Of a stretch of DNA of 37,170 nt, positions 8,224 to 24,545 are shown in pieces. Both the position numbers and the translations under genes were made by a program. The notes below the pieces were generated by a model. The model saw nothing but the letters and a program-made list of their open reading frames with translations, was not told the DNA's origin and did no database searches. The DNA is from Zetaproteobacteria bacterium CG1_02_53_45 (lineage in GTDB: Bacteria; Pseudomonadota; Zetaproteobacteria; Mariprofundales; Mariprofundaceae). The stretch spans positions 1 through 37,170 of the forward strand of contig MNWZ01000023.1 of NCBI GenBank assembly GCA_001871925.1, read 5' to 3'. Positions within the stretch are counted from its first letter, which is position 1. Every line of letters starts with the position of its first letter.

Positions 8224-9537
8224 TTGATGGGGTCAAATGAACAACGCATAGAGCATGATCTCTTTTCCGGTGCAGCTCTGTCTATGACTGACAGCAGTCC
8301 CGGCATGGATGGTGTGCTTGCCTGCCACGATTGCGATTTGCTGCATCACATCAAACATGTTCCGGCAGGCGGCAAAGCGCTGTGCAGCCGTTGCGGTTCG
8401 CTGTTGTACCGCCATCATCCCGATGGCCTTACTCGGGTGCTGGCATTGAATCTTGCCGCACTGATCTGTATTGTACTGGTCAATGTGTTTCCCTTTCTCT
8501 CCATGGAGATCGCCGGGCGCGTGGAAGAAACCGTATTTATTTCCGGTATGCTGTCGCTCTACCAGCTTGGTATGGGTGAGTTGGCGCTGCTGGTGTTACT
8601 GACCAGCCTGCTGTTTCCGCTGCTGGGTATTCTCGGCATGTTGTATGTTTTGCTGCCTGTCCGCTTCGGTTTCCGGTTGCCGGGTCTGGTCCCTGTCTAC
8701 CGTCTGGTTCGGATCGTGACGCCGTGGTGCATGCTCGACGTGTTAATGCTCAGTGTGTTGCTCGCTGCGGTGAAATTGCTTGATCTTGCTCATGTCGTTC
8801 CCGGGATTGCGCTCTATGCATTTATCGCGCTCGTTGTGCTGGAGGCGGCAGCCTATGCAAGCTTTGACCGCGCCCTGTTGTGGCCGCCGACACCCCCCGA
8901 TTGTGCCGACAAAGGCGGCACGGCGGCAGATGCCGAGCTGATCAGTTGTCATACCTGCGCGCTGCTGGTGCCCGCTTCCACACTCAGCCGGACAGGCAGA
9001 GCGCACTGCCCGCGCTGCAATACGCCGCTGCATCAGCGCAAGCTCAACAGTCTCAATCGCACATGGGCGCTGATTATCTCGGCACTGCTGTTACTGATAC
9101 CGGCCAATGTCTATCCGGTGATGACCGTCATCCGCTTCGGGCAGGGTGAGCCGAGCACCATTGCAGCCGGCATCGAGCATCTCATCGAAGAAGGTATGTG
9201 GCCGCTGGGCATGATTGTGTTTGTCGCCAGCATCATCGTGCCGTTCATGAAACTGGCCGCGCTTTCTCTGCTGCAGATTTCAGTACAGAAGAGATCCGGC
9301 TGGCGTATGCGTGACCGGACGGTGCTCTATCGCCTGACCGAGCTGGTCGGTTCCTGGTCAATGGTGGATATTTTCCTGATTGCACTGCTGACAGGGCTGG
9401 TTAAGCTGGATGCATTGACCACGATTACGCCGGATATCGGTGCGCTGTTTTTTGCCGGAGTCGTGGTTACGACAATCTTTGCCGCCAACAGTTTTGATCC
9501 GAGGCTGATCTGGGACCACGGAGAGCGCCGGCAATGA
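8224..9537 (+). CDS. pqiA: Paraquat-inducible protein A family membrane protein
   Basis: Inner-membrane partner of the PqiB MCE tunnel, thought to take part in lipid movement across the envelope. The 437-residue protein consists of two similar halves. Each has a CxxC...CxxC zinc-ribbon-like motif (CHDC...CSRC at about 39-60; CHTC...CPRC at about 240-262) followed by about four hydrophobic helices (for example ALICIVLVNVFPFLSMEIAG and ALIISALLLLIPANVYPVM). This duplicated layout is that of PqiA/YebS. A gagg motif eight bases upstream favours the TTG at 8224, with ATG 8227 immediately after as the alternative. The stop overlaps the pqiB ATG by four bases. Confidence 0.93.
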   Translation: MMGSNEQRIEHDLFSGAALSMTDSSPGMDGVLACHDCDLLHHIKHVPAGGKALCSRCGSLLYRHHPDGLTRVLALNLAALICIVLVNVFPFLSMEIAGRVEETVFISGMLSLYQLGMGELALLVLLTSLLFPLLGILGMLYVLLPVRFGFRLPGLVPVYRLVRIVTPWCMLDVLMLSVLLAAVKLLDLAHVVPGIALYAFIALVVLEAAAYASFDRALLWPPTPPDCADKGGTAADAELISCHTCALLVPASTLSRTGRAHCPRCNTPLHQRKLNSLNRTWALIISALLLLIPANVYPVMTVIRFGQGEPSTIAAGIEHLIEEGMWPLGMIVFVASIIVPFMKLAALSLLQISVQKRSGWRMRDRTVLYRLTELVGSWSMVDIFLIALLTGLVKLDALTTITPDIGALFFAGVVVTTIFAANSFDPRLIWDHGERRQ

Positions 9538-11180
9538 CAGGGGATGGTGTCGATTTGGAAGCTGAAAAACTCGCGACTGCCGAAATCAAGGCGGGTTCCC
9601 CCTTTTCACTGATCTGGCTGATCCCCCTGATCACGGCCATTATCGGCGGTTGGCTAATCATCAAGACGCAGATGGAGAAGGGGCCGGAGATCACCGTCAG
9701 CTTCAAGACCGCCGAAGGCATCGAGGCCGGTAAAACGCGCGTCAAATTCAGGGATGTGGATGTCGGCGTCGTTAAAGGCGTGCAATTCAGTGATGATTTC
9801 ACCCATGTGGTCGTGACGGCGGAGCTGAACAAGGGAACCGAAACACTGCTGCACAAGCAGACACGCTTCTGGGTGGTCAGGCCGCGCCTGAGCCTGAGCG
9901 GTGTTTCCGGCTTGAATACGCTGGTCTCCGGCGCTTATATCCAGTTCGCGCAAGGGGACGGCGAAGAAAGCAGGGTATTTACCGGTCTGGACACTCCCCC
10001 GATCATCAGTCCGGGTCAGGCCGGAGTCGAGGTGGTATTAAAGAGTGAGGAGCTGGGCTCACTGGATATCGGTTCGCCACTCTACTACCAGGGGCTGCAG
10101 GCCGGAGAGGTGCTCGGTTATGAACTGGCCAAAGACAATAAAAGCGTATTCATTCATGCCTTTGTCAGAGAGCCGTTCAGTGGGCTTGTGAGCAGCAATT
10201 CACGCTTCTGGAATATCAGCGGCATCGATATTTCGGTCGGGGCCGACGGGCTCAATGCCCACATGGAGTCGGTGAAGAGTTTGTTGCTTGGCGGCATCGC
10301 ATTCGGAACGCCGGACACGCTGGAGCCTGCAAGCGGCGAGGTGAAGGATCTGGTGTTTACCCTGTTCAAAAGCCAGAGCGACATTCGGGAAAGCACGCTG
10401 TTCACCAGAAAAGAGAATATCATTGCCTTCTTTGACGGTTCGGTGCGCGGCCTGGAGGTGGGAGCACCGGTTGAGTTCAATGGCATCAAGGTCGGATCCG
10501 TGGCTGACCTGAGTCTTGAGTTCGACAAAAGCAACGCCAGTTTCCGCATTCCCGTGCTGCTGACCATCGAACTCGACAGATTCAAGATGCGCGGCGGTGA
10601 GCCTTTCATTGTGGATACCAAGGCGCTGTTTTATCAGATGGTCAAAAAAGGTCTGCGCGCGCAATTGAGTACGGGCAGCCTGTTGACCGGCAAGTTATTT
10701 GTTGAGCTGAATATCCATCCGGGCACACCGATACGACTACTGGCAGATGAAAGTTATCCTTATGCGGAAATACCGACCATCCCCGGCGGCCTGGATCAGA
10801 TTACGGCGGCAGTGCAGAACATTCTCGTCAAACTGGAAAAGGTGGACATAGAAAAGATCGGGTCGAACCTGGAGCAGACGTTGCAGGGTACCAACAACCT
10901 GATGAACGGGCCTGAGTTAAAGGGGGCCATGCAGGCCTTGCAACATACCCTGAGCAAAATCGACCGGCATGCAGGGCCTGTGGCGGAAAATCTCGATGCG
11001 CTACTGTCTCAGGCCGAAGTGACACTGAAGTTGTTGAACAGGCAGCTGAAATCCGGCTCATCGATCATGCAGATGTCCGAAGAGTTGACAGATATGGCGC
11101 GATCCATCCGTGCGCTGGTGGATATGCTCGAGCAGAGACCGGATGCACTGCTGTTCGGCAAGCCTGAATCCGGAGAGTGA
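9534..11180 (+). CDS. pqiB: PqiB-type MCE (MlaD) protein
   Basis: Builds a periplasm-spanning hexameric tube proposed to carry phospholipids between inner and outer membranes. The 548-residue protein matches E. coli PqiB in length. A short cytoplasmic tail precedes one membrane helix at about 20-42 (PFSLIWLIPLITAIIGGWLI). Three MlaD/MCE repeats follow, each starting with a variant of 'F..A.GI..G...V.FRDV.VG.V' (for example IEAGKTRVKFRDVDVGVV, GSLDIGSPLYYQGLQAGEV and LEVGAPVEFNGIKVGSV). A long helical C-terminal region (about 425-530) would form the needle. It overlaps pqiA by four bases and abuts pqiC. Confidence 0.95.
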   Translation: MTGDGVDLEAEKLATAEIKAGSPFSLIWLIPLITAIIGGWLIIKTQMEKGPEITVSFKTAEGIEAGKTRVKFRDVDVGVVKGVQFSDDFTHVVVTAELNKGTETLLHKQTRFWVVRPRLSLSGVSGLNTLVSGAYIQFAQGDGEESRVFTGLDTPPIISPGQAGVEVVLKSEELGSLDIGSPLYYQGLQAGEVLGYELAKDNKSVFIHAFVREPFSGLVSSNSRFWNISGIDISVGADGLNAHMESVKSLLLGGIAFGTPDTLEPASGEVKDLVFTLFKSQSDIRESTLFTRKENIIAFFDGSVRGLEVGAPVEFNGIKVGSVADLSLEFDKSNASFRIPVLLTIELDRFKMRGGEPFIVDTKALFYQMVKKGLRAQLSTGSLLTGKLFVELNIHPGTPIRLLADESYPYAEIPTIPGGLDQITAAVQNILVKLEKVDIEKIGSNLEQTLQGTNNLMNGPELKGAMQALQHTLSKIDRHAGPVAENLDALLSQAEVTLKLLNRQLKSGSSIMQMSEELTDMARSIRALVDMLEQRPDALLFGKPESGE

Positions 11181-11182
11181 CC

Positions 11183-11818
11183 ATGCGCATCTGTTTTATC
11201 CGAAACTGTATTATATCGCTGCTGGCCGGAGTGCTGCTTGTTGCCTGCGCCTCATCGACGGCTTCCCGCCTGTATGTACTCAATCCGGTCGCATACGTTG
11301 CTCCTCTGGCGCAAAGCAAAGCAGATGCAGTATCGGTCGGGCTGACGCTGAAATTGCCGGCATATCTGGAGCGCTCCCAAATTGTCACGCGCAGCAATGA
11401 CAGCCAGTTGAAGTTGGCCCAGTCGGACCGCTGGGCTGGTAACCTGAGAAAAAACATGACTCAGGTGCTGGTTAAAAACATGACTGCCCTGCTGGATGCT
11501 TCCCGCATCGCCGTTGTGCCTGCCGATTCGGATGTGCTTCCTGCCTTGAGTGTCGAACTGGAACTGTTCGGCTTTGAACGGTTTTCCGACGGTAAGGTTC
11601 ATCTCTCCTCTGCATGGCGCATCGTTGATGATTCAGGTCTGCTGAAGGCCCACCATACGTTTGAATCGAGTCGTGCAGCAGGCCTGAAGGGTTATGAAGC
11701 GACTGTTGAAGTGATGAGTGCCCTGCTTGGCGATCTTAGCCATGCTATGGCGGAATCGCTAGTGAAGCTGCTGGAGGCGGGTAGCCCTGATAAGGGAGTG
11801 GCCCCGGCAGCAGCCTGA
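11183..11818 (+). CDS. pqiC: PqiC-type outer-membrane lipoprotein
   Basis: Membrane-anchored lipoprotein of the ABC-type transport auxiliary (DUF330) family. In E. coli PqiC docks the end of the PqiB tube at the outer membrane. The start is ATG 11183, seven bases after a ggag site; a GTG at 11177 overlapping the pqiB stop is the alternative. A hydrophobic signal peptide leads to a lipobox with the lipidated Cys at residue 22 (LLVAC). The 211-residue product has the family's SRLYVLNP start and a 'W..NL...L...L' core (DRWAGNLRKNMTQVL). It closes the pqiABC operon; no clear terminator follows. Confidence 0.9.
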   Translation: MRICFIRNCIISLLAGVLLVACASSTASRLYVLNPVAYVAPLAQSKADAVSVGLTLKLPAYLERSQIVTRSNDSQLKLAQSDRWAGNLRKNMTQVLVKNMTALLDASRIAVVPADSDVLPALSVELELFGFERFSDGKVHLSSAWRIVDDSGLLKAHHTFESSRAAGLKGYEATVEVMSALLGDLSHAMAESLVKLLEAGSPDKGVAPAAA

Positions 11819-11882
11819 GCGGCCAGCTAACGCATAATTCTGAACCTATGCCGCAGTAGCAAAGCAGCAACAGCAGTGAAAT

Positions 11883-11925
11883 TGGCGCACTCTGGTGGAT
11901 TCGAACCACTGGCCTAGAGACCCAG
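11883..11925 (-). other. tRNA 3'-end fragment, possible integration (att) scar
   Basis: Read on the reverse strand, this stretch has a T-arm (GTGG-TTCGAAT-CCAC), a 7-nt acceptor 3' strand (AGAGTGC), a discriminator G and an encoded CCA. No matching 5' acceptor strand (GCACTCT), D-arm or anticodon arm lies upstream, so it is not a complete tRNA. Such 3'-only fragments are typically left as attachment sites by site-specific integrases. It sits at the left border of the chemosensory operon. No second copy or integrase gene is in the window. The amino-acid identity cannot be fixed. Confidence 0.55.
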
Positions 11926-11984
11926 TAAAAACATCAGGTATTGGCATCTGTTTTGCTAGTGGGTATGGCGGTTGGGGTATGCGA

Positions 11985-13070
11985 ATGAATGAAGTAGGAA
12001 ATGGAATAAATAACACTATCGCTCCGTTCCGGGTACTGATAGTAGATGATATGGCCACCAATCGTTTGGTGGCGAGATCTGTGCTGGCCCGCTACGGATA
12101 TGAAGTCGAAGAAGCTGAGTCTGGTGAAAAGGCTCTCTCTATGCTTGCTGAGCGTCAATATGACTCCGTGCTTATGGATATCATGATGCCCGGTATGGAC
12201 GGCTTTGAGGCCTGTCATAAAATCCGCACAGAACTTGAGTTAACACTGCTGCCTGTCATCATGTTAACATCTTTAAGCGGCCCTGATGACGTAGCCAGAT
12301 CCATGGCGGTCGGGGCCAATGATTTTATTCATAAACCATTCAATGCCACCGAATTGCTTGCCAGGGTGAATGCTGCGGTTACGCACAAGCGCCTCACCGA
12401 TCGCCTCGATGATACGGAGTCTGTACTCTTTGCTCTGGCCCGTATGGTTGAGGCGAAAGATTTAACCACGGGTGACCACTGTGATCGGCTGGCACACAGA
12501 AGTATCATGTTCGGCAAACATTTGGGCTGCAAGTCTGAAGAGCTTGAAGCCTTACGCCGTGGTGGAGTATTGCATGATATCGGAAAACTCGGCATTCCTG
12601 ATGCCATTCTGCTTAAGCCCGGCGCGCTTGATGATGAAGAGTGGGTTGTCATGCGCCGCCACCCGGAGATTGGCGCACGCCTGTGCAGCTCTCTGAAAAC
12701 CATGCAGATGACAACGGACATTATCAGTTGTCATCATGAACGCTGGAATGGCAGCGGCTACCCCAAAGGCTTGAAGGGTGAAGATATTCCCCTGCTGGCA
12801 CGGATTTTCCAGCTGGTTGATGTCTTTGATGCTTTAACATCTGATCGGCCTTATAAAAAGGCGCTTTCGACTGAAAAGGCGATAGAGATTATGCAACAGG
12901 AGTGCGCGAAGGGCTTCTGGGATCCTGAACTGCTGGGCCAGTTTATTGCCCTGCTTCGAGAAAGCGCAGAGGTGCTGGAGCTGCCGCGTAGCTTTGCTGG
13001 CGACAAGAGCTCAACTATCTTTGATAGTATCGCAGGGCTGGGCGTAGATGCGAAGCATTGGATAAAATGA
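11985..13070 (+). CDS. Response regulator with HD-GYP phosphodiesterase output (RpfG-like)
   Basis: Predicted to hydrolyse c-di-GMP when its receiver is phosphorylated. The 361-residue protein has a REC domain (about 15-130) with acidic pair Asp21/Asp22, phospho-acceptor Asp65 (LMDIMMPG) and Lys117 (KPF). The HD-GYP domain (about 145-340) has the metal-binding HD pair at 197-198 (HDIGK) and an intact GYP signature at 258-260 (NGSGYPKG). I chose ATG 11985 because upstream in-frame sequence encodes the tRNA-like fragment and a ggttgggg ribosome-binding site precedes it. ATG 11979 is possible. It is first in the chemosensory operon and overlaps cheW by four bases. With no CheY present, it is the likely phosphorylation target of CheA. 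Confidence 0.93.
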   Translation: MNEVGNGINNTIAPFRVLIVDDMATNRLVARSVLARYGYEVEEAESGEKALSMLAERQYDSVLMDIMMPGMDGFEACHKIRTELELTLLPVIMLTSLSGPDDVARSMAVGANDFIHKPFNATELLARVNAAVTHKRLTDRLDDTESVLFALARMVEAKDLTTGDHCDRLAHRSIMFGKHLGCKSEELEALRRGGVLHDIGKLGIPDAILLKPGALDDEEWVVMRRHPEIGARLCSSLKTMQMTTDIISCHHERWNGSGYPKGLKGEDIPLLARIFQLVDVFDALTSDRPYKKALSTEKAIEIMQQECAKGFWDPELLGQFIALLRESAEVLELPRSFAGDKSSTIFDSIAGLGVDAKHWIK

Positions 13071-13582
13071 CTGAGCCGACTGTCGAGCAGGGCAGCATGA
13101 ACATGCTTCATTTCCACATAGGCGACATGCACTTCTGTGTAAGTCTCGCTCAGGCAAGTCGGGTACTCCCCCTTGTCGCGCTGCAACAGCTCCCCGATGC
13201 ACCGGACTATATAGCCGGCCTGATGAATCTTCACGGTAGATCGGTACCTGTTGTGGATCTGATCTATCGGCTGAACCTGCCCTATAAGCGCTCCTATAAC
13301 ACAGACGCATGCATTATCCTTTGCCAAGTGGATGACAAAACAGTCGGCCTGATCGCCGATGATGTTGATCATGTCGGATCAGCAGATCACGCAATGGTCC
13401 AGCTGCAGTCCCTTTTTAACTGCAATACCCCCCCCCTGCTGGGGCTGGTTGAATCAAAACTGGGCATGGCGGCATGGCTGGCACTTGAGCCCATCCTTGA
13501 TTTTGATTTTTCCCTGCCGGATGGCCATGTCGCCGATGACTACCACCAGATACTCAGCGCATTGTCTGATCAAACACCGTGA
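13067..13582 (+). CDS. cheW: CheW-type chemosensory coupling protein
   Basis: A scaffold linking the chemoreceptor to CheA. About 171 residues from ATG 13067, which overlaps the preceding stop as ATGA; ATG 13097 could also serve. The CheW fold is clear: LHFHIGDMHFCVSLAQASRV at the start, then YIAGLMNLHGRSVPVVDL (the conserved 'G..N.RG...PV.DL' strand) and VGLIADDVDHV. The usual Arg of 'NLRG' is His here (NLHG). It ends next to cheR with a four-base overlap (GTGA). This operon contains a second, more divergent CheW-like gene at 15060, so the array may use two couplers. Confidence 0.9.
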   Translation: MTEPTVEQGSMNMLHFHIGDMHFCVSLAQASRVLPLVALQQLPDAPDYIAGLMNLHGRSVPVVDLIYRLNLPYKRSYNTDACIILCQVDDKTVGLIADDVDHVGSADHAMVQLQSLFNCNTPPLLGLVESKLGMAAWLALEPILDFDFSLPDGHVADDYHQILSALSDQTP

Positions 13583-15063
13583 ACATAGCTATGACTGCTG
13601 AGCTTCATCAATCAATTAATAACGCAGCCTTTGTTACACCTGAGTGTGAGAGGGTCTTTATCGATTTTCTCTATGAAAAACTGGGGTTGGTCATCAAAAG
13701 CCATCAGCTGAAAAGCCTGCACGATGGCATTGATAAGGGTTGCCGCCAGTTTGGCCACCTCAGGTGGCAGGACTATTTTGAAGCACTTAAGCAAAGCGAC
13801 AGCACATCCTCCGAAATGGAGCAACTTATTGCCGCGGTTACGATTGGAGAGAGCTACTTCTTTCGTGACCAAAACCAGATCGCCTGGCTGCGCGACATCT
13901 GGCTGCCTCAGATTATAGAGCAGCGTCGCAGCAAGGGTGAGAAATACCTGCGCATCTGGAGTGCGGGCTGCTCCAGCGGTCAGGAGCTCTACACCATGGC
14001 CATACTTCTTGCTGAAGCACTGCCAGATCTGGGCGAGTGGAAGATCCATCTCATGGGCACCGACATTAATGCAGCGGTGTTAAGCAGAGCCCTGCATGGC
14101 CACTACTCATCATGGTCATTCAGGGCAACCCCCGAAGCGGTGCGGGATAGATATTTCTTTAGCCAGGAATATGGCTATACCATCAACGATAACCTGCGTC
14201 AGATGCCACTCTTCACCTTTCTCAATCTGGCCGATGATGAGTACCCCTCGATATTAACCCAGACTAACGCCATGGATCTGATCCTGTGCCGCAATGTTTT
14301 TATCTATTTTGATAAGAGAGTGGTAAACATGGTGATGCATCGTTTTTCCCGTAGCCTGTTACCCGGAGGGGTGCTGATGTTGGGAGCTTCGGACCTGGTC
14401 GCCTCCGGTATGGATAGCCTCAGGCTGGTGCAACATGGAAATATTTTTTATTACCATAATAGTATCAAAGAAGAAAACCACACCACACCAATTCCGTCGA
14501 AAAAGCATACTTCTGACCGCCGGAAAATACGACATGTCTCTGCTGAGCCGGCACAACCAGTAATAGATGATACACTTCATGAGATGCTGCATGGTGGCCG
14601 CTGGCATGAGGCGCTAAGTCATATTGAAGTAGCAATAAAGCAGCAGGGAAAAACCGCCCCCCTGCTACAGCACAAGGCGAAAGTGATGGCCAATCTGGGC
14701 GATCTCCAGGCTGCAAAAGCGCTATGTGAAGAGAGCCTTGGACTTGATCCGCTGGATATGCATACCTATTTCCTGAAGGCCATGGTGCTGATTGAGCTGG
14801 GTGATGATCAGGGGGCTGAATCAAGCCTGCGCAAAACCATCTATCTGGAGCCATGCTTTGTAGAGTCCCATTTTCAGCTGGGCCTGCTACTCATCAGATG
14901 TGAGAGGGTTGCTGCCGGCAAGAAGGCACTTCACAACGCTTTGCGGCTGGCCAGAAGCGCTCCGCCTGAAGGTGAACTGCATCATGCGGCAGGTATGACC
15001 TTTAAGCGTTTTGTTGAAATACTGGAGCATGAGATGGAGATCTATGCAGGTGAATTCAATTGA
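13579..15063 (+). CDS. cheR: CheR-type receptor methyltransferase with C-terminal TPR repeats
   Basis: Transfers methyl groups from S-adenosylmethionine to glutamates on the chemoreceptor, for adaptation. It has an N-terminal helical CheR domain (about 20-85), the TIGESYFFRD stretch (88-97), the SAM-binding loop AGCSSGQELYT (129-139) and MDLILCRNVFIYF. A C-terminal extension from about 330 contains at least three TPR-like repeats (for example LGDLQAAKALCEESLGLDPL and LGDDQGAESSLRKTIYLEP). TPR-fused CheRs are known from non-flagellar or alternative chemosensory pathways. GTG 13579 overlaps the cheW stop; ATG 13591 is an alternative. The stop overlaps the next gene's TTG. Confidence 0.93.
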   Translation: MNIAMTAELHQSINNAAFVTPECERVFIDFLYEKLGLVIKSHQLKSLHDGIDKGCRQFGHLRWQDYFEALKQSDSTSSEMEQLIAAVTIGESYFFRDQNQIAWLRDIWLPQIIEQRRSKGEKYLRIWSAGCSSGQELYTMAILLAEALPDLGEWKIHLMGTDINAAVLSRALHGHYSSWSFRATPEAVRDRYFFSQEYGYTINDNLRQMPLFTFLNLADDEYPSILTQTNAMDLILCRNVFIYFDKRVVNMVMHRFSRSLLPGGVLMLGASDLVASGMDSLRLVQHGNIFYYHNSIKEENHTTPIPSKKHTSDRRKIRHVSAEPAQPVIDDTLHEMLHGGRWHEALSHIEVAIKQQGKTAPLLQHKAKVMANLGDLQAAKALCEESLGLDPLDMHTYFLKAMVLIELGDDQGAESSLRKTIYLEPCFVESHFQLGLLLIRCERVAAGKKALHNALRLARSAPPEGELHHAAGMTFKRFVEILEHEMEIYAGEFN

Positions 15064-15689
15064 CCGCTAAACAGACACCCCCTGCATCCAATGTGAGAAA
15101 GGAGCATGCAGATCTGCCGGTAGCTCACGGGAGACCTACTCCTCGTCCGTCACTGCTGCCCAAATCAAAGCAAAGTCAGCGTATCCTGCTGGAAAGGGCG
15201 GCTCTTCTGGCCAAAAAGAGAGATGATGAGCAGAGCCGCGGCGGTCATGACTCCTATCTGCTCTTTCGGCTGGGGCCATCTGAACTCTATGGTATTCAAT
15301 GGCATTATCTTGTTGAAGTCATGCCGGGCCGGCCGTTAAACGCCGTACCCGGAGCCCCTGCCTGTATCATCGGACTATTCAACCGTCGCGGTAAAATTCT
15401 CTCAGCCCTGAATATCGCTGAATTGATCGATTTGCCTGACAGGGGCGATGAAGAGAGGGGCGAGATGATTGTCGTGCAGGCTGCCGGGATAATGGTGGGT
15501 ATTGTTGTCAACCAACTAATGGGCAGTCAAAGCTATGACCCGGCCCACCTTGAGCCACCTCTCGCAGGGTTTAAAAAACGGGCACATGGATCATATGTAC
15601 ATGGCATTGATCAGGGGAAAGTCACCCTGCTGAATCTGGAAAAGCTTTTGCAACACCTACAATTTCGAATGAATGATACAGCTCTCTGA
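15060..15689 (+). CDS. Second CheW-like protein with N-terminal extension
   Basis: A 209-residue protein with a basic, Pro-rich, likely disordered N-terminus of about 55 residues, then a CheW-like domain (about 60-200): LFRLGPSELYGIQWHYLVEV, PGAPACIIGLFNRRGKILSALNI and MVGIVVNQLMG. The 'G..N.RG' motif is intact as GLFNRRGK, unlike in the first CheW. The proposed TTG 15060 overlaps the cheR stop by four bases; a GTG at 15091, just upstream of RKEHADLP, is the main alternative. It lies between cheR and the receptor gene, so it probably couples this globin receptor to CheA. Confidence 0.85.
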   Translation: MTAKQTPPASNVRKEHADLPVAHGRPTPRPSLLPKSKQSQRILLERAALLAKKRDDEQSRGGHDSYLLFRLGPSELYGIQWHYLVEVMPGRPLNAVPGAPACIIGLFNRRGKILSALNIAELIDLPDRGDEERGEMIVVQAAGIMVGIVVNQLMGSQSYDPAHLEPPLAGFKKRAHGSYVHGIDQGKVTLLNLEKLLQHLQFRMNDTAL

Positions 15690-15720
15690 TCAGAGACAGA
15701 GATATGGTGAGGTACGTGAT

Positions 15721-17265
15721 ATGAATATGGAAACCAATGCGACGCTGTTGTCAAAAATGGCCATGGGCAGCGCTGAACAGGCATCAATAAAAGCCTTTGT
15801 CGACTTTACCGACGAAGATGTCCGACTATTAAAGGATTTGGCCCCGTTAATCGCCGCACATGCCGATGCTATTATTGATGGTTTTTATGCCAATGTGGCG
15901 CGTTATCAAAGCCTGCAGAATGTCATCAAAAGTGCAGGTTCATCCATTGAGCGACTGAAAAGCGCTCAAAAGCAATACCTGTTGGAGCTGTTCAGTGGCG
16001 ATTACGGTGAAGCCTATTTTGAACGCAGGCTGATGATTGGTGTGGTGCATAATAAAATAGGATTAACGCCGCGCTGGTACCTTGGCAGTTACAGCGTGTA
16101 TGTGCAGCTGATTACACCACTGGTGATGAAGAAGTGTATCTTCAGACCGGGCCTGGCTGAAAGAACCATGATGGCAGTCAATAAAATTATTTCTATTGAT
16201 TCTCAACTGGCTATCGACACTTACATCCATGCTGTGATGGAGGATCTGAAGAGTATGAGCATGTCCAAGGGTGAGCTGGAAGAGACTGTTGCATCGTACC
16301 GCTCACTTGTCGAGAAGGTCGCAACCGGGGATCTGACCCAGAAACTTGAGGTCAGCGATAGCGATGATGACTTGTCGCAACTCGGAGTGAATCTGAATTC
16401 CATGACGGAAAATCTGCGCATAATGGCTGGCCAGGTGGCAGAAGCCAGCCATAGCCTGAGCACCTCCATGCATCAGGTGCAGGAGTCCATCAACTCACAA
16501 TCAGCAGGCGCATCCGAGCAGGCTGCATCCATCGCAGAAACCGTCAGCACATTGGAGGAGATCAGAGCAACATCCTCGCAAACCATGGAAAAAGCGGTGG
16601 AGATGGGGGATATGGCGACTCAGACAACTGAGGCAGGTGAGCAGGGTGTTCAGATGCTTGGTCACACCATAGAAGGGATGCACTCGATTCGTGAGCAGAT
16701 GGGGGCAATTGCCAGCACTATTCTCGATTTGAGCGATAAAACTCAGCAGATCGGTGATATTATTACCACAGTCAACGGCCTGACCCAGCAGACCAAAATG
16801 CTCTCCCTGAATGCCTCCATTGAGGCGGCCAAGGCTGGCGATGCCGGCAAGGGGTTTTCGGTGGTGGCAGCAGAGATCCGTGATCTTTCCGGGCAGTCGG
16901 AGCAGGCAACATCGCAGATCAGCAAGATATTAACCTCCATCAGAACCGGCGCTGAGAAGGCGGTCATGGCAACAGAAGAGGGGTTGAAAGAGGTGGATCA
17001 GGGAACATCTCTGGTTGATCAGTCCGGAGAGCGCCTGAACACACTGCTCGAACTGATTCGCAGTACGGCCATGTCCAGCCATCAAATTGTGGCAGCAGTG
17101 CGTCAGGGGGCGAGTGGTATTGATCAGATCGCCATTGCCATGGATGATATCAATAAAGCGACAAATCAGTTTGTTGCCGCTTCAAATCAGACCAAGGCGG
17201 TGACCAATGATCTCAATGCGCTGGCCGCAATTCTGCGCGAGCATGCGGGAGCATATAAGGTTTAA
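15721..17265 (+). CDS. Globin-coupled methyl-accepting chemotaxis protein (HemAT-like)
   Basis: A soluble haem-based receptor with no membrane helix, expected to sense O2 or another gas. In the 514-residue protein a protoglobin domain spans about 15-175, with predicted proximal haem ligand His110 in VVHNKIGLTPRWYLG, closely matching the HemAT pattern. A HAMP-like linker (about 185-235) leads to an MCP signalling domain (about 255-505) with the conserved tip LSLNASIEAAKAGDAGKGFS. It lacks the C-terminal NWETF-type pentapeptide, so CheR/CheB would act without that tether. Start ATG 15721 follows a gagg site; upstream in-frame codons overlap the previous gene and are unlikely. CheA follows after three bases. 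Confidence 0.93.
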   Translation: MNMETNATLLSKMAMGSAEQASIKAFVDFTDEDVRLLKDLAPLIAAHADAIIDGFYANVARYQSLQNVIKSAGSSIERLKSAQKQYLLELFSGDYGEAYFERRLMIGVVHNKIGLTPRWYLGSYSVYVQLITPLVMKKCIFRPGLAERTMMAVNKIISIDSQLAIDTYIHAVMEDLKSMSMSKGELEETVASYRSLVEKVATGDLTQKLEVSDSDDDLSQLGVNLNSMTENLRIMAGQVAEASHSLSTSMHQVQESINSQSAGASEQAASIAETVSTLEEIRATSSQTMEKAVEMGDMATQTTEAGEQGVQMLGHTIEGMHSIREQMGAIASTILDLSDKTQQIGDIITTVNGLTQQTKMLSLNASIEAAKAGDAGKGFSVVAAEIRDLSGQSEQATSQISKILTSIRTGAEKAVMATEEGLKEVDQGTSLVDQSGERLNTLLELIRSTAMSSHQIVAAVRQGASGIDQIAIAMDDINKATNQFVAASNQTKAVTNDLNALAAILREHAGAYKV

Positions 17266-17268
17266 GTC

Positions 17269-19557
17269 ATGGCGATGGATCTGGACCCTGAAATACTTAA
17301 GCAGATTGTTGAAGTCTTCTCCGTTGAACTGGAGGAGCAGCTTCAGACAATCACTGACAGCATCCTCAAACTCGAAAAGGAACCGGGGGAGGCTGAAAGG
17401 CTGGCTGAACTGGATATAATATTCAGGGCGGCACACAATATTAAAGGGGCAGCGCGTGCCATTGATGCGAACCATGTGGCAGATGTGGCTCACAAGCTGG
17501 AGTCACTGTTCAGCCACCTTAAACAGGAAAACCGGATGCCGTCGGCAGAGGCCATTGATCTTTGTCTGGGAGCATTGGACCACATCAAGGTCTGTATGAC
17601 GGCTTATGTGGATGATGTATCACCGGAAGTTGACTTGCAATCACTCTACCAGAGCCTGGAAAATATGCTGAGCTGTGCGCCTGAACTGCAGCCTGCAGAT
17701 GACACAACACCCAATCGCACTGAAGAGATACCTGCCGAAACTTTGCCAGACAACAGTGCTGCAGCATCCCCTGAATCTGACATTACAGCCTCTGGCAAGG
17801 AGGTTGTGGCCACTAAAACAGCCGCGATGGCGCGAAACGAAGGGGTGCTGCATGTAGTTGCTGATAAGATTGATCAGCTGATTGCATTGGGTGAAGATAT
17901 GCAGGTATCCAGCATCGAAGTTGCTCAGAACAGTGTGGCATTGCAACAGCTCAATGATAAGATTTTGTATCTGTCAGAAACTGTTGGTTCGTTAAGCGGC
18001 TTGCTGCGCAATGATCTTCACAGCGGCGTGCGCGACACGCTTCTACAGACGATTGATGCAGTCCATGAGATTAAAAATCACTCTGCCAAGCTGCTATCGG
18101 GCATGCGAAGTTGCGCCGGGGATTTAGGTTTTGTCACCTCCGAACTGAATCATAGCCTGTATAGCCTGCGCCTTGTTCCGGCAGCAACTGTGATGCAAGG
18201 CGTGACGCGCTCGGTACGCGATATTGCCAGAGAGATGGGCAAAAAAGTGGATTTTAAGCTGCTCGGTGATGAGATTGAGATGGACCGGGTTGTACTGAAC
18301 AATCTGAAAGCCCCTCTGCTCCACCTGATTAGAAATGCCATCGATCATGGTATTGAACTGCCCGATGATCGTATCGCAAAAGGCAAACCCGAAGCCGGCA
18401 TGATTTCAATCACCCTCAACAGTGCAGGCAGTGAAGTAAGCCTGACGGTCAGCGATGATGGCCATGGCATTGATATCAATAATGTGGCTGATGCCGCTGT
18501 AAGAAAAAAAATCATTCGCAGCGATGAGCGGCAAGACATGGATTCCGACAGCTTGCTGGATCTGATTTTCCATCCCGGTTTTTCAACCCGGGAGATCATC
18601 ACCGATATTTCCGGTCGAGGCGTAGGGCTGGATGTGGTGCGCTCCACGCTGGCCAATATCAAGGGTCGAGTCACTGTTCAAAGTGCGCTGAATCAGGGCA
18701 CATCATTTCAACTGTTTTTACCCCGCATGCTGACGACAGAGAGGGGACTGTTGGTCAAAGCTGCCGGCGACACCTATATCCTTCCGAGTACGGCTGTCGA
18801 TCGGGTCATGATTGTGCAGGCGGGTGAAATCGTTAAAGTGGATTGCAATGAAGCGATATTAATTGATGGTCGCGCCGTGCCTCTACGCTCTCTGGAGCAC
18901 GCACTTGGTTTCGGCAGTGGCAATGCCATTGAGCAAGACAGTGCTCTCTGTGTAGTCATCATCAGAAAGGGGGCTGCCGCCGTTGCTTTTCTGGTTGATG
19001 ATATTGTGCAGGAACGGGAAATTGTTATTAAATCGCTCATGCCTCCACTAACCTCGCTCCCCAATGTCATGGGAGCCGCGGTCAGCGCCAGCCATGGTAT
19101 TATGCTGGTCCTCAATGCCAACAGTCTGCTTGATCAGGCACTAAGCAGAGGCTCAGGCATAAAGATTCGCCAAAAAGAACGCAGGGATACAGTCAGCCAG
19201 CGCATTCTGCTGGTTGATGACTCCATCACCACACGGACTCTGGAGAAAAGTGTGCTGGAGAACAGGGGTTATGCCACCACACTGGCCGTGGATGGCGCTC
19301 AGGCATGGGAGATCCTTCAGCATCAGCAATTCGACCTCATTATTACCGATGTGGAGATGCCGGTCATGAACGGATTTGAGCTGACTGCAAAGATCAAAGG
19401 CAGCGCTGATCTTGCGGGTATCCCTGTCATTATTGTCACATCACTGGCCAATGACGCAGATAAAAAACGTGGCATTGAAGCAGGAGCTGATGCTTATATC
19501 GTCAAGAGCCAGTTTGAGAGCAAGGCATTGCTGGCGCTTGTTGAGCAGTTGATCTGA
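17269..19557 (+). CDS. cheA: Hybrid CheA histidine kinase with C-terminal receiver
   Basis: Autophosphorylates on a Hpt histidine and passes phosphate to receiver domains. In the 762-residue protein: P1/Hpt at about 1-110 with phospho-His56 (AAHNIKGAAR); a poorly conserved linker at about 130-195 with no recognisable P2 CheY-binding domain; dimerisation helices at about 200-330; an HATPase domain with the N-box LIRNAIDHG and the G-boxes DDGHG and GRGVGLDVV; a CheW-like P5 domain (about 500-625); and a REC domain (644-762) with phospho-acceptor Asp694 (ITDVEMP). The fused REC may act as phosphate sink or relay. ATG is three bases after the receptor stop. Confidence 0.95.
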   Translation: MAMDLDPEILKQIVEVFSVELEEQLQTITDSILKLEKEPGEAERLAELDIIFRAAHNIKGAARAIDANHVADVAHKLESLFSHLKQENRMPSAEAIDLCLGALDHIKVCMTAYVDDVSPEVDLQSLYQSLENMLSCAPELQPADDTTPNRTEEIPAETLPDNSAAASPESDITASGKEVVATKTAAMARNEGVLHVVADKIDQLIALGEDMQVSSIEVAQNSVALQQLNDKILYLSETVGSLSGLLRNDLHSGVRDTLLQTIDAVHEIKNHSAKLLSGMRSCAGDLGFVTSELNHSLYSLRLVPAATVMQGVTRSVRDIAREMGKKVDFKLLGDEIEMDRVVLNNLKAPLLHLIRNAIDHGIELPDDRIAKGKPEAGMISITLNSAGSEVSLTVSDDGHGIDINNVADAAVRKKIIRSDERQDMDSDSLLDLIFHPGFSTREIITDISGRGVGLDVVRSTLANIKGRVTVQSALNQGTSFQLFLPRMLTTERGLLVKAAGDTYILPSTAVDRVMIVQAGEIVKVDCNEAILIDGRAVPLRSLEHALGFGSGNAIEQDSALCVVIIRKGAAAVAFLVDDIVQEREIVIKSLMPPLTSLPNVMGAAVSASHGIMLVLNANSLLDQALSRGSGIKIRQKERRDTVSQRILLVDDSITTRTLEKSVLENRGYATTLAVDGAQAWEILQHQQFDLIITDVEMPVMNGFELTAKIKGSADLAGIPVIIVTSLANDADKKRGIEAGADAYIVKSQFESKALLALVEQLI

Positions 19558-19600
19558 TGAGGCCGGTTTCAGTTGAACAGCGTACAAGGGTGGTTGAGAG

Positions 19601-20647
19601 ATGATTCGCATTCTGGTTGTTGAAGATTCGATCGTCGTAACCATGCTGTTAAAAGCGATGTTTGCCGCGGAGAGTGATTTTGAAGTGGTCGGACATGCTC
19701 GCAATGGCGAGGAGGGTGTGCGACTTACACATGAGCTGAAACCGGATCTGATCACTATGGATATCCGCATGCCAGTGATGGATGGTTTCGAAGCCACCTG
19801 CGAAATCATGAGAAGCACCCCCACACCTATCGTGGTGATCAGCTCCAGTGTCGATGCGGAAGAGCTGCGCATCACCTTCCGTGCCATCGAAATGGGCGCA
19901 TTGGCGGTGATTGAAAAGCCCTTTGGCCCAAAGCACCCTGATTATGACAAGGGGCGTCGCAATATGATTGCGACGATTCGTGCCATGGCCAGTGTTAAAG
20001 TGGTAAGGCGCAACCGTAAAGAGGTCCGCATTCGACCGGCTGTAACGGCGATGTGCAGAACAGCGGTTCAAAAAGCATTTGAAGTCGTGGCTATTGGCTG
20101 TTCAACCGGAGGGCCACAGGCACTTAAAAGTATTCTCTCTGAACTATCGGCAAGCTTTCCGCTTCCTGTCGTGATTGTTCAGCATATCTCGCATGGCTTT
20201 GTACAGGGGCTGGTCTCCTGGCTGAACAGCGTCAGTCCATTGCAGGTGAAAATCGCGCAGCATGGTGAAGTGCTGTTGCCCGGCCACGTCTATATCGCTC
20301 CCGATGATCGCCATATGCTTGTCATCCGCCTTAACAACAGATTGATGGTCAGCCTTGATGACTCCCCGCTCATCGGTCAGTTCCGGCCTTCTGCCACGTC
20401 TCTGCTGCAGTCGGTTGCAACAACCTGTGGTGAAATGGCCATCGGCATGCTGCTCTCCGGTATGGGTGATGACGGTGCCTCCGGATTGCTTGAGCTGCGA
20501 CAGGCAAAAGGACACACGCTGGTTCAGGATCAACAGAGTTCGGTGGTCTATGGCATGCCGGGCTCTGCCCTGAAGCTGGATGCGGTGGATAAAGTACTGA
20601 ATCTGGACGAGATACCATCCTATCTAGAAAAGGCGGTGAATCGATGA
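19601..20647 (+). CDS. cheB: CheB receptor methylesterase/deamidase
   Basis: Removes methyl groups from the receptor when its receiver is phosphorylated by CheA, resetting sensitivity. The 348-residue protein has an N-terminal REC domain (1-125; phospho-acceptor Asp54 in ITMDIRMP, and Lys in EKPF) and a C-terminal esterase (about 160-345). The catalytic triad is visible: Ser168 in GCSTGGP, His195 in VQHIS and Asp291 in GMGDDGASG. It starts at ATG 19601 after a 43-bp gap, the longest in the operon, with ggttgagag just upstream. The stop overlaps the next ATG by four bases. Confidence 0.95.
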   Translation: MIRILVVEDSIVVTMLLKAMFAAESDFEVVGHARNGEEGVRLTHELKPDLITMDIRMPVMDGFEATCEIMRSTPTPIVVISSSVDAEELRITFRAIEMGALAVIEKPFGPKHPDYDKGRRNMIATIRAMASVKVVRRNRKEVRIRPAVTAMCRTAVQKAFEVVAIGCSTGGPQALKSILSELSASFPLPVVIVQHISHGFVQGLVSWLNSVSPLQVKIAQHGEVLLPGHVYIAPDDRHMLVIRLNNRLMVSLDDSPLIGQFRPSATSLLQSVATTCGEMAIGMLLSGMGDDGASGLLELRQAKGHTLVQDQQSSVVYGMPGSALKLDAVDKVLNLDEIPSYLEKAVNR

Positions 20648-21063
20648 ACAGTAATGATCAGTACCTCTGGCCCCTGTTCAAAGCCGAATATATTAGCCGG
20701 ATTGCTCACATACGAGAAATACTGAACGAGTGTTATGGTCAGGGATTCTCCAGAATTTATTTTGATCGTATTCATCAGGAGTTCGACAGTATCAACGGGG
20801 CTTCAAGGGTCGTGCACCGGGAAGATATCGGTGAGCTGGCCAGACTGTCTGCATCCTATGCTCGCCATCTCCGTATCCAGCTGCCGAATGGGCTGGATGA
20901 TTCTCAACTTGTGCTGCTTGAAGCATTGATAGTACTGGCTGAGAAGGTGATCCCGCTGATCAATATGGAAAGCGATTTCTACTGCTTGAAAGAATCGCTG
21001 CTGCCTCAGATTCGCAACATGCTGGCCTCCCCGCCCGACAGGGATGTGACAAGCAATGGCTGA
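20644..21063 (+). CDS. Hpt-like helical protein lacking the phospho-histidine
   Basis: A 139-residue all-helical protein that I tentatively read as a degenerate Hpt domain. The segment FDSINGASRVVHREDIGELARL (about 47-68, shown by its ends only: FDSINGASRVV then DIGELARL) lines up with the Hpt consensus 'aHslKGaar.vG...l..la'. The phosphorylatable His position is Asp48 and the following Lys is Asn51. It should therefore not carry phosphate but could still bind a receiver or CheA. It overlaps cheB by four bases and the downstream GGDEF-EAL gene by eight, so it is made together with both. Other readings, such as an unrelated four-helix bundle, remain possible. Confidence 0.7.
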   Translation: MNSNDQYLWPLFKAEYISRIAHIREILNECYGQGFSRIYFDRIHQEFDSINGASRVVHREDIGELARLSASYARHLRIQLPNGLDDSQLVLLEALIVLAEKVIPLINMESDFYCLKESLLPQIRNMLASPPDRDVTSNG

Positions 21064-23401
21064 ACTAATGACAGATAGTATGGGCTTGATCTCTGTAGTG
21101 ACACTTGCTGCCGCAATGGCATTGTTTTGGCTTAACGCCAGTGCCTCGCGGAAAAAAGATGCAATGCAGCAGCAGAAAAATCACCTGATGTTGAAAGCAA
21201 CCACTCGGGCACTCTCCGTTTTCGTGGCCAATGCAGACCGGCGGGCCCTGTTTTCCCAGATTCTAGAGGATCTCAAATCGTTGAGCGAAAGTGAATACGG
21301 TTTCATCGCTGTTGTTCTAAATCGATGCGATGGAAAGCCATATCTTAAAACACTGGCCATTACGAATATCGCCTGGAATGAAGATACACGCCGGATCTAT
21401 GATGAGCAGCAGGAGAAGGGGCTGGAGTTTAATAATCTGGATTCACTCTTTGGCAGTGTGGTGCGTACCGGAGACGTGGTCATTGCCAACACTCCGGCAA
21501 CCGATCCGGGCAGTGGCGGGCTGCCGCAGGGCCATCCTCCGATTCACGCCTTTCTCGGCATTCCGCTCCAGCTCGATGATCAACTGATCGGCATGATCGG
21601 TCTGGCTAATCGCCCCGGCGGCTATGACGATGCCATGGTCAGCTACCTGGAACCGATGCAGCAGGCCTGCGCCAATGTCATCGGTGCTGACCAAAATAAT
21701 CAACGAAGAGAGGTGGCAGAGGAGGATCTGCTGCTGGCCAGCAAGGTGTTTGAAAGCTCGTTGGAGGGTATACTGGTTACAGATCCGCTTGGAAACATTC
21801 AATCGGTAAATCCTGCCTTTTGCCAGATTACCGGTTACAGCGAAGCCGAAGTGATCGGCAAAAACCCGCGTCTGCTGAAATCTGAACATCATGATAGCGT
21901 ATATTATGAAAAGATGTGGGCATCCATTCTGACAACAGGCAAGTGGCAGGGTGAACTATGGAACCGCCGTAAGGATGGTGGCACCTTTCCGATATGGCAA
22001 ACCATCAGCGTCATTAACGATGATGCCGGAGAGGTCATCCACTATGTGGCGATCTTCTTTGATATCACTGAGCGCAAACTTGCCGATGAACAGTTGCAGC
22101 ATCAGGCCCAGCATGATGCCCTGACCGGACTGCCAAACCGCATGCTGTTTGACAACCTTCTCCGACAGATTTTAAGAGAAGAGCACCGTACTCACCAACA
22201 GAGTGCTGTTGTGTTTATGGATCTGGATCGATTCAAGGAGGTTAACGACACCCTTGGCCACCCCATCGGTGATATGCTGCTGCAGGAGGCCTCAAAACGG
22301 TTACGATCGTGCATTCGTGATTCAGATGTACTGGCCAGAATGGGTGGCGATGAATTCACCCTGATCCTTCTGGATGTAACCGGCATTAATAGTGCTGCAT
22401 ATATTGCAGAAAAGATTATCCGCAGCCTGAATAAGACCTTTTACTTGCTGGGTCATGAGTGCCATGTCGGAGCAAGTATCGGGATCAGCATGTACCCCAC
22501 TGATGGTACTGATGCCGAAACACTGATTAAATGTGCGGACACGGCCATGTATCGCGCCAAGGAGAGTGGGCGCAATAATTACCAGTTCTTCACTTCCAGT
22601 ATGGGTGATGAGTTGATGCTGCGCATCCAGATGAAAAAAGCGATTGATGAGGCGATCAAACATGGCGAGTTTCAGCTCTATTACCAGCCTAAAATCCATC
22701 TGGTGACCGGCCACTGTGTCGGGGCAGAGGCTCTGATCCGCTGTGTATTGCCAAACAATGAGTTGATTCTGCCCGATACGTTCCTGCCGCTGGCCGAAGA
22801 GACCGGGCAGATTATTGAAATCGGTGCATGGGTACTGCATCAGGCATGCTATCAGCTAAAGGCGTGGCATGAGAGCGGATATGATCATCACTCGCTGGCA
22901 GTCAATCTCTCTGCCCGCCAGTTTGAATCAAACCTGCTCATTGAACAGCTTGTTCAGGCGCTCGATGAGACAAAACTCGACCCCTCATTTCTTGAACTCG
23001 AAGTGACAGAGACCTGCGCCATGAAAGACTCGGACAAGACTATTGAGATTCTGGAAAAGATCAAAAAACTCGGCATCAAGGTATCGATTGATGATTTCGG
23101 CACCGGTTACTCTTCCTTAAGTTACCTCAAGAAGTTCCCTGTCAACACGCTGAAGGTGGATCGTTCATTTGTACGCGATATCCCCGATGACAGGGATGAT
23201 ATGGCGATCACCACAGCCATTATCCAGATGGCTTCCAACCTCGATATCTCGGTGGTTGCCGAAGGGGTGGAGACAAAACAGCAAGGCGAATTTCTTGCCG
23301 GCAAGGGTTGTGAGCTGGCTCAGGGGTACTTCTTCAGTCGTCCGCTGCCTATTGATGAATACATGATCTGGTTGAAAGGCTATGAAGCATTAGGGAACTA
23401 G
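21056..23401 (+). CDS. Membrane-anchored GAF-PAS-GGDEF-EAL c-di-GMP enzyme
   Basis: A bifunctional-type c-di-GMP protein of 781 residues. It has an N-terminal membrane helix (about 8-27), a GAF domain (60-215), a PAS domain (228-342), a GGDEF domain (350-510; GGDEF intact at 430-434, RxxD I-site RDSD at 421-424) and an EAL domain (525-775). The EAL domain keeps EAL at 558-560, the Asn in VNLSARQ, ELEVTE, DDFGTGY (679-685), the Lys in LKVDRSF and the Glu in VAEGVE. Both activities look intact; which dominates cannot be told from sequence. It is the last gene of the chemosensory operon. Its TAG stop is inside the CTAG duplicated by the IS, so the protein end is preserved. Confidence 0.93.
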   Translation: MAELMTDSMGLISVVTLAAAMALFWLNASASRKKDAMQQQKNHLMLKATTRALSVFVANADRRALFSQILEDLKSLSESEYGFIAVVLNRCDGKPYLKTLAITNIAWNEDTRRIYDEQQEKGLEFNNLDSLFGSVVRTGDVVIANTPATDPGSGGLPQGHPPIHAFLGIPLQLDDQLIGMIGLANRPGGYDDAMVSYLEPMQQACANVIGADQNNQRREVAEEDLLLASKVFESSLEGILVTDPLGNIQSVNPAFCQITGYSEAEVIGKNPRLLKSEHHDSVYYEKMWASILTTGKWQGELWNRRKDGGTFPIWQTISVINDDAGEVIHYVAIFFDITERKLADEQLQHQAQHDALTGLPNRMLFDNLLRQILREEHRTHQQSAVVFMDLDRFKEVNDTLGHPIGDMLLQEASKRLRSCIRDSDVLARMGGDEFTLILLDVTGINSAAYIAEKIIRSLNKTFYLLGHECHVGASIGISMYPTDGTDAETLIKCADTAMYRAKESGRNNYQFFTSSMGDELMLRIQMKKAIDEAIKHGEFQLYYQPKIHLVTGHCVGAEALIRCVLPNNELILPDTFLPLAEETGQIIEIGAWVLHQACYQLKAWHESGYDHHSLAVNLSARQFESNLLIEQLVQALDETKLDPSFLELEVTETCAMKDSDKTIEILEKIKKLGIKVSIDDFGTGYSSLSYLKKFPVNTLKVDRSFVRDIPDDRDDMAITTAIIQMASNLDISVVAEGVETKQQGEFLAGKGCELAQGYFFSRPLPIDEYMIWLKGYEALGN

Positions 23402-24545
23402 GGATACTCTGAAAAACTCTCTGAATATGTTATTTCAAAGGTATACGGAGGGTATGCCATGGATCAGTTGAGTTTTGCTGAAGCGGAATATGAGAACAAG
23501 CGGCGGAAGACCCGTCGTGAGCTTTTTCTTGAGGAAATGGATGCATTGCTTCCGTGGCAGAAACTGGAATCGAAGATCAAACGCCACTACTCGAACAGTA
23601 AGACGGGCAGGCCTCCATATCCGTTGTCAGTGATGCTTCGAGTTCACTGCCTGCAGCTGTTTTACAATCTGTCAGATCCGATGATGGAAGACTCTCTGTA
23701 TGAGATTGAATCGATGAGGCGATTTGCGAAGTTGCGACTGAGTGAACGCATTCCTGATCAAACGACGATTCTGAACTTTCGACACCTGCTGGAGTCCCAT
23801 GGTTTTGGGCAAAAGCTGATGTTGGAGATCAACAAGCATCTGACATCAAAGGGATGCAGTTTGCGGGAAGGTAGAATCGTAGATGCCACACTGATTTCAG
23901 CACCATCATCGACGAAGAACAAAGAGAATCAGCGCGATCCTGAGATGCATCAGACGAAGAAAGGCAACCAATGGTACTTCGGCATGAAGCTGCATATCGG
24001 CGTGGATGCTGACACGGGACTGGTACACAGTGCTGTTGGTACATCAGCCAATGAGCACGATATTACGAAGGCTGCTGATCTTCTGCATGGCCGTGAGAAA
24101 CGGGTCCATGGCGATGCCGGATATGCAGGCATTCACAAACGTGAAGAGCACAAGGAACGCGATGTGGAGTGTCATATTTCTGCCCGGCCAGGCAAGCGAA
24201 AACATGGCCGACGGCAGTAATGAGTCGAATCATGAGAAGGCCAAGGCATCGATCAGGGCAAAGGTGGAACATCCGTTTCGGTGGGTCAAAGGCATCTTTG
24301 GTTACAGCAAAGTGCGTTACCGTGGCCTGCACAAGAATATGAACAGACTCTACCTGCTGCTTGGCTTTACCAACCTGCTTCGCAGTCGAAGTCTTGGTTA
24401 TACAGGATAGGTCTGCCCGGAATACGGGCAAAACACCTGATCAAAGCCCATTTGGGCGATGATCGGGAGATAAAAATCGAAATGCGCCAAAATTTCACTC
24501 GAATTAGGGACGGTGGAAAATAACAGGGAGTTATTCAGAGCTTCC
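23402..24545 (+). mobile_element. IS5-group insertion sequence, 1144 bp, CTAG target duplication
   Basis: The left end is GGATACTCTGAAAAACT and the complement of the right end GGAAGCTCTGAATAACT (14 of 17 match). CTAG is duplicated at 23398-23401 and 24546-24549, as expected for the IS5 group. One transposase gene of IS5 type lies inside, on the forward strand, but it is frameshifted. The insertion point is the stop codon of the GGDEF-EAL gene, which it restores. The MITE at 4073-4225 has nearly identical ends. Confidence 0.92.
23459..24410 (+). pseudogene. IS5-group transposase, split by a frameshift
   Basis: DDE transposase very similar in plan to that of E. coli IS5. The first frame (23459-24220) carries SFAEAEYENKRRKTRRELFL, MLRVHCLQLFYNLSDPMMED, the first catalytic Asp in IVDATLISAPSSTKNKE, QRDPEMHQTKKGNQWYFGMK and the second Asp in HGDAGYAG. 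It then ends abruptly after RPGKRKHGRRQ. The expected C-terminus (KASIRAKVEHPFRWVKGIFG, KVRYRGLHKN) continues in the +1 frame to 24410. A single indel near 24200-24220 explains this. Joined, the product would be about 317 residues, normal for the family. IS5-group programmed frameshifts are not usual at this position, so I call it inactive. Confidence 0.85.

Follow-up and report, generated by a model that had tools for sequence, protein, structure and literature searches.

A globin-receptor chemosensory operon linked to c-di-GMP enzymes in a Mariprofundus-like zetaproteobacterium

One alternative-cellular-function (ACF) chemosensory system, Wsp of Pseudomonas, has as its output a REC-GGDEF protein, that is, a receiver (REC) joined to a GGDEF domain (PMC8846402), and clusters with CheR-TPR carry the multidomain response regulators typical of ACF systems (PMC3447774). 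In Rhodospirillum centenum Che3, the kinase CheA3 phosphorylates a hybrid kinase and not the neighbouring CheY3 (PMC3868531). Globin-based sensing has been connected with cyclic di-GMP (c-di-GMP) in a single protein, which joins a globin to HD-GYP and works as a c-di-GMP phosphodiesterase that O2 activates (PMC10882959). Here, we analyse a nine-gene operon on contig MNWZ01000023.1 of Zetaproteobacteria bacterium CG1_02_53_45, a 37,170-nucleotide stretch that we refer to as the window (contig C125 of the host genome). The host, a marine iron oxidizer, is represented by a Mariprofundus-like metagenome-assembled genome of 2.44 Mb in 171 contigs with an estimated completeness of 86%, and its relatives, Mariprofundus and other Zetaproteobacteria, are microaerophilic iron oxidizers. 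We consider it probable that the operon encodes an ACF array that senses a gas through a globin receptor and has c-di-GMP turnover as its output, where the ligand, the phosphotransfer, the direction of signalling, the role of a small protein, Orf8, and the phenotype are what we infer. The open-licence literature on globin sensors and chemosensory systems, ACF, Wsp and Zetaproteobacteria held no description of this gene set, in agreement with an earlier note on this DNA, which knew of none.

All nine genes lie on the plus strand at 11985-23401 with their key motifs intact, and Pfam searches and motif checks confirmed the positions and domains that the earlier note had given them. The first gene (11985-13070) encodes a REC-HD-GYP response regulator (Pfam Response_reg and HD_5), a predicted c-di-GMP phosphodiesterase and candidate CheA target, in which the REC Asp and the HDIGK and HHExxxxGxGYP motifs are intact. 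It is followed by a CheW coupling protein (13067-13582; Pfam CheW), by a CheR methyltransferase with C-terminal TPRs (13579-15063; Pfam CheR and TPR) and by a second CheW (15060-15689; Pfam CheW). The open reading frame listed for cheW1 opens at TTG 13058; we prefer ATG 13067, which forms an ATGA overlap with the preceding stop. Next come a soluble globin-coupled chemoreceptor, in which protoglobin and HAMP domains precede that of a methyl-accepting chemotaxis protein (MCP) (15721-17265; Pfam Protoglobin, HAMP and MCPsignal), a CheA-REC hybrid kinase with an intact AHNIKG in its P1 domain (17269-19557; Pfam Hpt, HATPase_c, CheW and Response_reg) and a CheB methylesterase with a receiver (19601-20647; Pfam REC and CheB, with an NCBIfam CheB subfamily above cut-off); the CheA and CheB receivers both carry DxxMP. 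The last two genes encode Orf8 (20644-21063), a 139-residue protein of predicted Hpt fold without the phospho-His (a pseudo-Hpt), and GAF-PAS-GGDEF-EAL, a predicted bifunctional c-di-GMP enzyme (21056-23401; Pfam and motifs) with one N-terminal transmembrane segment, no receiver, and GGDEF, RxxD I-site and all EAL motifs intact. If cheW1 is started at ATG 13067, the genes overlap at five of the eight junctions, by 4-8 bases and in the ATGA manner, and stand 3, 31 and 43 bases apart at the other three. The operon, described in the note as gapless, is therefore slightly less compact than claimed. The wiring of a chemosensory array to c-di-GMP enzymes is borne out by gene linkage.

The receptor frame opens at 15673, and we set its start at 15721 because homologues align from there; its nearest named relatives are from Mariprofundus and other zetaproteobacterial metagenome-assembled genomes, at 77-90% identity. 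The N-terminal domain is a Protoglobin (Pfam, E 1e-42), and its best solved relative is HemAT of Bacillus subtilis (1or4), on which H110 aligns with His123, Y56 with Tyr70 and Ala82 with Thr95. The proximal H110 and distal Y56 are invariant in the aligned homologues, both within and beyond the class. No hydrophobic stretch reaches transmembrane strength, hence the receptor is predicted to be cytoplasmic, and the soluble globin receptor with haem ligand His110 that had been proposed from the sequence stands. Its protoglobin, proximal His, distal Tyr and MCP parts mark it as a predicted HemAT-type globin-coupled sensor, which would bind haem and a gas. The two differ in their setting: HemAT feeds flagellar chemotaxis, whereas the receptor in the window sits in an ACF operon.

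We lean towards classing the system as ACF, given that the cluster combines CheR-TPR and multidomain response regulators with a CheA-REC and contains no CheZ, CheC or CheD. The ACF cluster of Azospirillum lipoferum 4B has the same core order, CheW-CheR-CheW-MCP-CheA-REC-CheB, but its receptor has no protoglobin domain, and it has a receiver protein and a hybrid kinase downstream, no annotated c-di-GMP enzyme and no Orf8. R. centenum Che3 resembles the operon in gene set and has a non-motility function, but its cluster includes the hybrid kinase CheS3 and a stand-alone CheY3, neither of which occurs in the window's operon (PMC3868531). Halomonas chemosensory cluster 2 is likewise an ACF system with CheR-TPR, CheA-REC, one receptor and a receiver-GGDEF; it differs in having CheY and an Hpt-REC-REC-GGDEF, in its gene order and in that no globin is mentioned (PMC5907407). 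The Vibrio fluvialis globin-HD-GYP fusion also ties globin O2 sensing to c-di-GMP breakdown by HD-GYP, but does so within one protein, whereas the link proposed here would run through an adapting receptor array and phosphotransfer (PMC10882959).

Orf8 matches no Pfam or NCBIfam family. Its predicted structure is a four-helix bundle (predicted local distance difference test score, pLDDT, 82), whose natural neighbours in the PDB are mainly CheA P1 and Hpt domains, alongside designed bundles; these matches, all with weak E-values, point to a CheA-P1/Hpt fold. Profile alignment to CheA P1, together with two weaker profile matches bearing the HSIKGA/HSLKGA P1 motif, places an Asp at the phospho-His position. 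This Asp, part of an HQE[FL]D motif, does not vary among the eight Orf8 proteins. With the phosphorylatable His of HxxKG replaced throughout, a true Hpt is ruled out, and the label 'Hpt-like' fails if it is taken to mean an ordinary Hpt. Strong Orf8 matches (E <= 1e-45) occur in eight of approximately 398 genomes, exactly those with the globin-ACF core. This co-occurrence and the missing His together make Orf8 a part of the core and not an ordinary phosphotransfer protein, and its most likely role would be that of a non-transferring P1 mimic. We also considered whether the A. lipoferum response regulator contains an Orf8 homologue in its N-terminal region, and rejected this.

Among 78 genomes of the class, a close receptor homologue was found in four, the window's own and three congeners (G051, G058 and G062), and Orf8 was found in those same genomes. 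Each of the four copies opens with the REC-HD-GYP gene, of which G058 shows only the 3' end, at a contig edge. In all four genomes, which are Mariprofundus-like, the operon has c-di-GMP enzymes at either end. GAF-PAS-GGDEF-EAL is present in three of the four and directly follows Orf8 in G051 and G058. A REC-GGDEF gene comes after GAF-PAS-GGDEF-EAL in G051, with a 4-base overlap, and after Orf8 in G062, which has no GGDEF-EAL. The globin operon of G058 is directly followed by an operon in Wsp order, behind which come two REC-GGDEF genes, one of them 71% identical to that of G051. REC-GGDEF is therefore found in three of the four copies, the window's genome being the exception; none occurs near its operon, and the rest of the genome, at its 86% completeness, gave only generic GGDEF domain matches. 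Because three copies have REC-GGDEF beside REC-HD-GYP, the ancestral output was probably an opposing phosphodiesterase and cyclase pair, of which the cyclase has apparently been lost in the window's genome. The REC-HD-GYP had been taken for the only receiver-linked output enzyme; this is true of the window's genome and not of its relatives, within the class or outside it. Three further observations concern these loci. In G051 a frameshift interrupts the EAL part of the GGDEF-EAL gene (L031 3351-3379), which could be an assembly error or a real lesion. The Wsp-order operon of G058 (L032 5104-12000; L079 = G058:C303) overlaps the GGDEF-EAL gene of the globin operon by 4 bases, so that two ACF systems are joined in one locus. 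G046 and G048 (L093 and L094) have a Wsp-type CheA and two tandem REC-GGDEF genes in the same stretches.

Outside the class, a search of an even sample of 398 genomes of the phylum with the globin profile gave four further high-scoring long receptors, three in one family (G082, G085 and G088) and one in another (G105). All four loci keep the order CheW, CheR, CheW, globin-MCP, CheA-REC, CheB and then an Orf8 homologue, and CheR-TPR recurs in their cores. The outputs are different. In G082, G085 and G088 a REC-PAS-GGDEF-EAL gene is divergently adjacent (by Pfam in G082 and G085, by homology and position in G088), while G105 has a hybrid kinase upstream and, downstream, a triple-receiver protein resembling adenylate/guanylate cyclases, which suggests cAMP or cGMP in place of c-di-GMP. 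HD-GYP was not found in the four loci. Across the eight genomes the core is thus constant and the output varies, and synteny on this scale means that the arrangement is not due to chance. The note had proposed a synteny search for the globin receptor next to its enzymes: the core is shared by all eight genomes, and the globin-MCP stands beside REC-HD-GYP in the four zetaproteobacterial ones only. G105 also has a second receptor with a nitrate/nitrite-sensing NIT domain (L077), and G007 has a distantly related globin-MCP, encoded in another che cluster together with homologues of CheA, CheB and CheR (L025). Plasmid records contained no globin-ACF homologue, and the matches in Legionella and Niveispirillum were mostly to the MCP part.

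In the mechanism that we propose, a gas, most likely O2, would bind the globin haem and thereby switch the signalling of an MCP/CheW/CheA array in the cytoplasm, which CheR-TPR and CheB would adapt by methylation. Phosphorylated CheA may have three targets for its phosphate: its own C-terminal receiver, which would act as a sink or brake; CheB; and the REC-HD-GYP phosphodiesterase, whose phosphorylation would alter the rate of c-di-GMP breakdown. In the relatives, the opposing REC-GGDEF cyclase would be a second CheA target, and the ancestral array may have set c-di-GMP through synthesis and breakdown pushed in opposite or timed ways; loss of the cyclase would leave the window's genome with a phosphodiesterase-only phospho-output. 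Orf8 probably mimics P1 without transferring phosphate, by binding to the kinase or to receivers, and GAF-PAS-GGDEF-EAL would be co-expressed and contribute an input of its own. In this iron oxidizer the likely outcome would be that O2 governs whether cells grow sessile or disperse.

The operon could instead be a modified Wsp, with the membrane receptor swapped for a globin receptor and WspR replaced by HD-GYP. The core components are those of Wsp (CheW, CheR-TPR, CheW, CheA-REC and CheB, with c-di-GMP as output), and three relatives of the window carry a REC-GGDEF related to the WspR type. However, the receptor of Wsp is in the membrane, and the window has a cytoplasmic globin receptor, an HD-GYP output, Orf8 and an extra GGDEF-EAL, with neither a WspA-type membrane receptor nor a REC-GGDEF (WspR) output. 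Wsp genes run in the order A-B-C-D-E-F-R in Azoarcus and Mesorhizobium, whereas here the MCP gene comes after that of CheW2 and before that of CheA. In the annotated Wsp operons of those two genera, moreover, no additional small gene is listed to separate cheB from the cyclase gene. In a maximum-likelihood tree of CheA, the globin systems, including that of the window, fall outside a 100/100 branch holding the Wsp of Mariprofundus, Azoarcus, Mesorhizobium and others; the long-branch rows of A. lipoferum, E. coli and G007 are not firmly placed, and the globin group unites at only 81/86 with A. lipoferum included. Given also that G058 has both systems side by side, a modified Wsp is very unlikely, and the tree places the globin-ACF systems as a sister lineage of Wsp. 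The Wsp-like logic seen in the note therefore survives as the linkage of an array to c-di-GMP enzymes, in a lineage whose core order is that of the A. lipoferum ACF cluster. Aerotaxis, in which the only array of a flagellated cell steers the flagella through an unlinked CheY and the c-di-GMP enzymes are secondary, also has points in its favour. Flagellin is present in the host genome, a genome-wide domain search found one MCP and three CheW domains, all inside this operon, which makes it the only chemosensory locus detected at 86% completeness, and HemAT is the aerotaxis receptor of B. subtilis (PMC6194562). Against it stand the ACF architecture and the lack of a CheY candidate: of the 67 receiver domains in the host genome, eight short stand-alone ones outside the operon were compared with the CheY model and none matched it, their matches being of NtrC, BarA, PleD, CckA or FixJ type, or none. 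The absence of CheY, CheZ, CheC and CheD asserted in the note accordingly holds for the operon, to which the search for cheC, cheD and cheZ was limited, and for CheY also for these eight receivers. Moreover, the operon coexists with further MCPs in G051, G058 and G062, and two 99%-complete congeners, G049 and G053, have flagellin and no MCP in the class search, so that flagellated members without ordinary chemotaxis exist in the genus. We regard aerotaxis as quite unlikely.

It is also unlikely, on present evidence, that CheA has no direct control over the HD-GYP protein and that the array instead acts on a hybrid kinase encoded elsewhere or through protein binding. Che3 of R. centenum does act on CheS3 (PMC3868531), RpfG acts on WspR as an adaptor (PMC9758175), and many of the 67 receivers of the host lie in long open frames of hybrid-kinase size; but the zetaproteobacterial operons contain no hybrid kinase, and REC-HD-GYP is the first gene in every copy examined. 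The remaining alternative is that the window's copy is decaying, having lost REC-GGDEF and taken an insertion sequence (IS). An IS element of the DUF772/DDE transposase type (23402-24545, plus strand; Pfam DDE_Tnp_1 and DUF772; terminal inverted repeats) does lie directly behind the last gene, and REC-GGDEF was not found in the host genome at its present completeness. However, all nine genes and their motifs are intact, and the IS lies outside the operon. CTAG or TA is duplicated on its two sides, so it probably inserted cleanly, into sequence already without the cyclase; with no REC-GGDEF remnant beyond it, the IS was likely not the cause of the loss. Decay of the locus is highly improbable.

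Several points nevertheless weigh against control of c-di-GMP turnover by a gas-sensing array. The proposal is read from genes and their neighbourhood, and the R. centenum Che3 precedent means that gene linkage is no proof of phosphotransfer. GAF-PAS-GGDEF-EAL, having no receiver, cannot be controlled by simple phosphotransfer from the array. HD-GYP is confined to the zetaproteobacterial copies, so it is no universal output. The ligand preference is uncertain, because the distal Thr95 of HemAT is Ala82 here. Finally, at 86% completeness, a CheY, a REC-GGDEF or a second array could sit in unsampled sequence.

Around the operon, pqiABC-like genes (PqiA, MCE/MlaD and an ABC_trans_aux lipoprotein) lie directly upstream at 8224-11818. 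The upstream neighbourhood in G062 is different, and the operon thus occurs in different genomic contexts. A minus-strand stretch at 11880-11930 resembles a T-arm and was rejected as a tRNA remnant: neither Rfam nor ARAGORN gave a match to it, and the genome contains it only once. The IS transposase reads in two frames (23459-24220 and 24006-24410) and may be frameshifted or a two-ORF type. Scans for promoters and terminators around the operon gave matches near chance level, which were not used.

More tentatively, we propose that these loci form a distinct, previously unrecognized globin-ACF lineage in Pseudomonadota, in which a gas-sensing array with an obligatory pseudo-Hpt would be combined with exchangeable cyclic-nucleotide outputs. 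In Zetaproteobacteria, REC-HD-GYP and REC-GGDEF would be an antagonistic pair served by one CheA, and Orf8, as a non-phosphorylated P1 mimic, would gate the flow of phosphate between kinase and receivers. A gas-sensing ACF core with an obligatory pseudo-Hpt, and paired opposing c-di-GMP outputs, would surprise specialists. If its role holds, the conserved pseudo-Hpt would be a new component of chemosensory phosphate routing. As the only chemosensory system detected in the window's species, the operon offers a simple test case. If the proposal is true, one adapting receptor array would control both the making and the breaking of c-di-GMP in response to a gas. This would matter for microaerophilic iron oxidizers, a group with an O2-dependent niche, and stalk formation in Zetaproteobacteria has been proposed to depend on c-di-GMP (PMC8250860).

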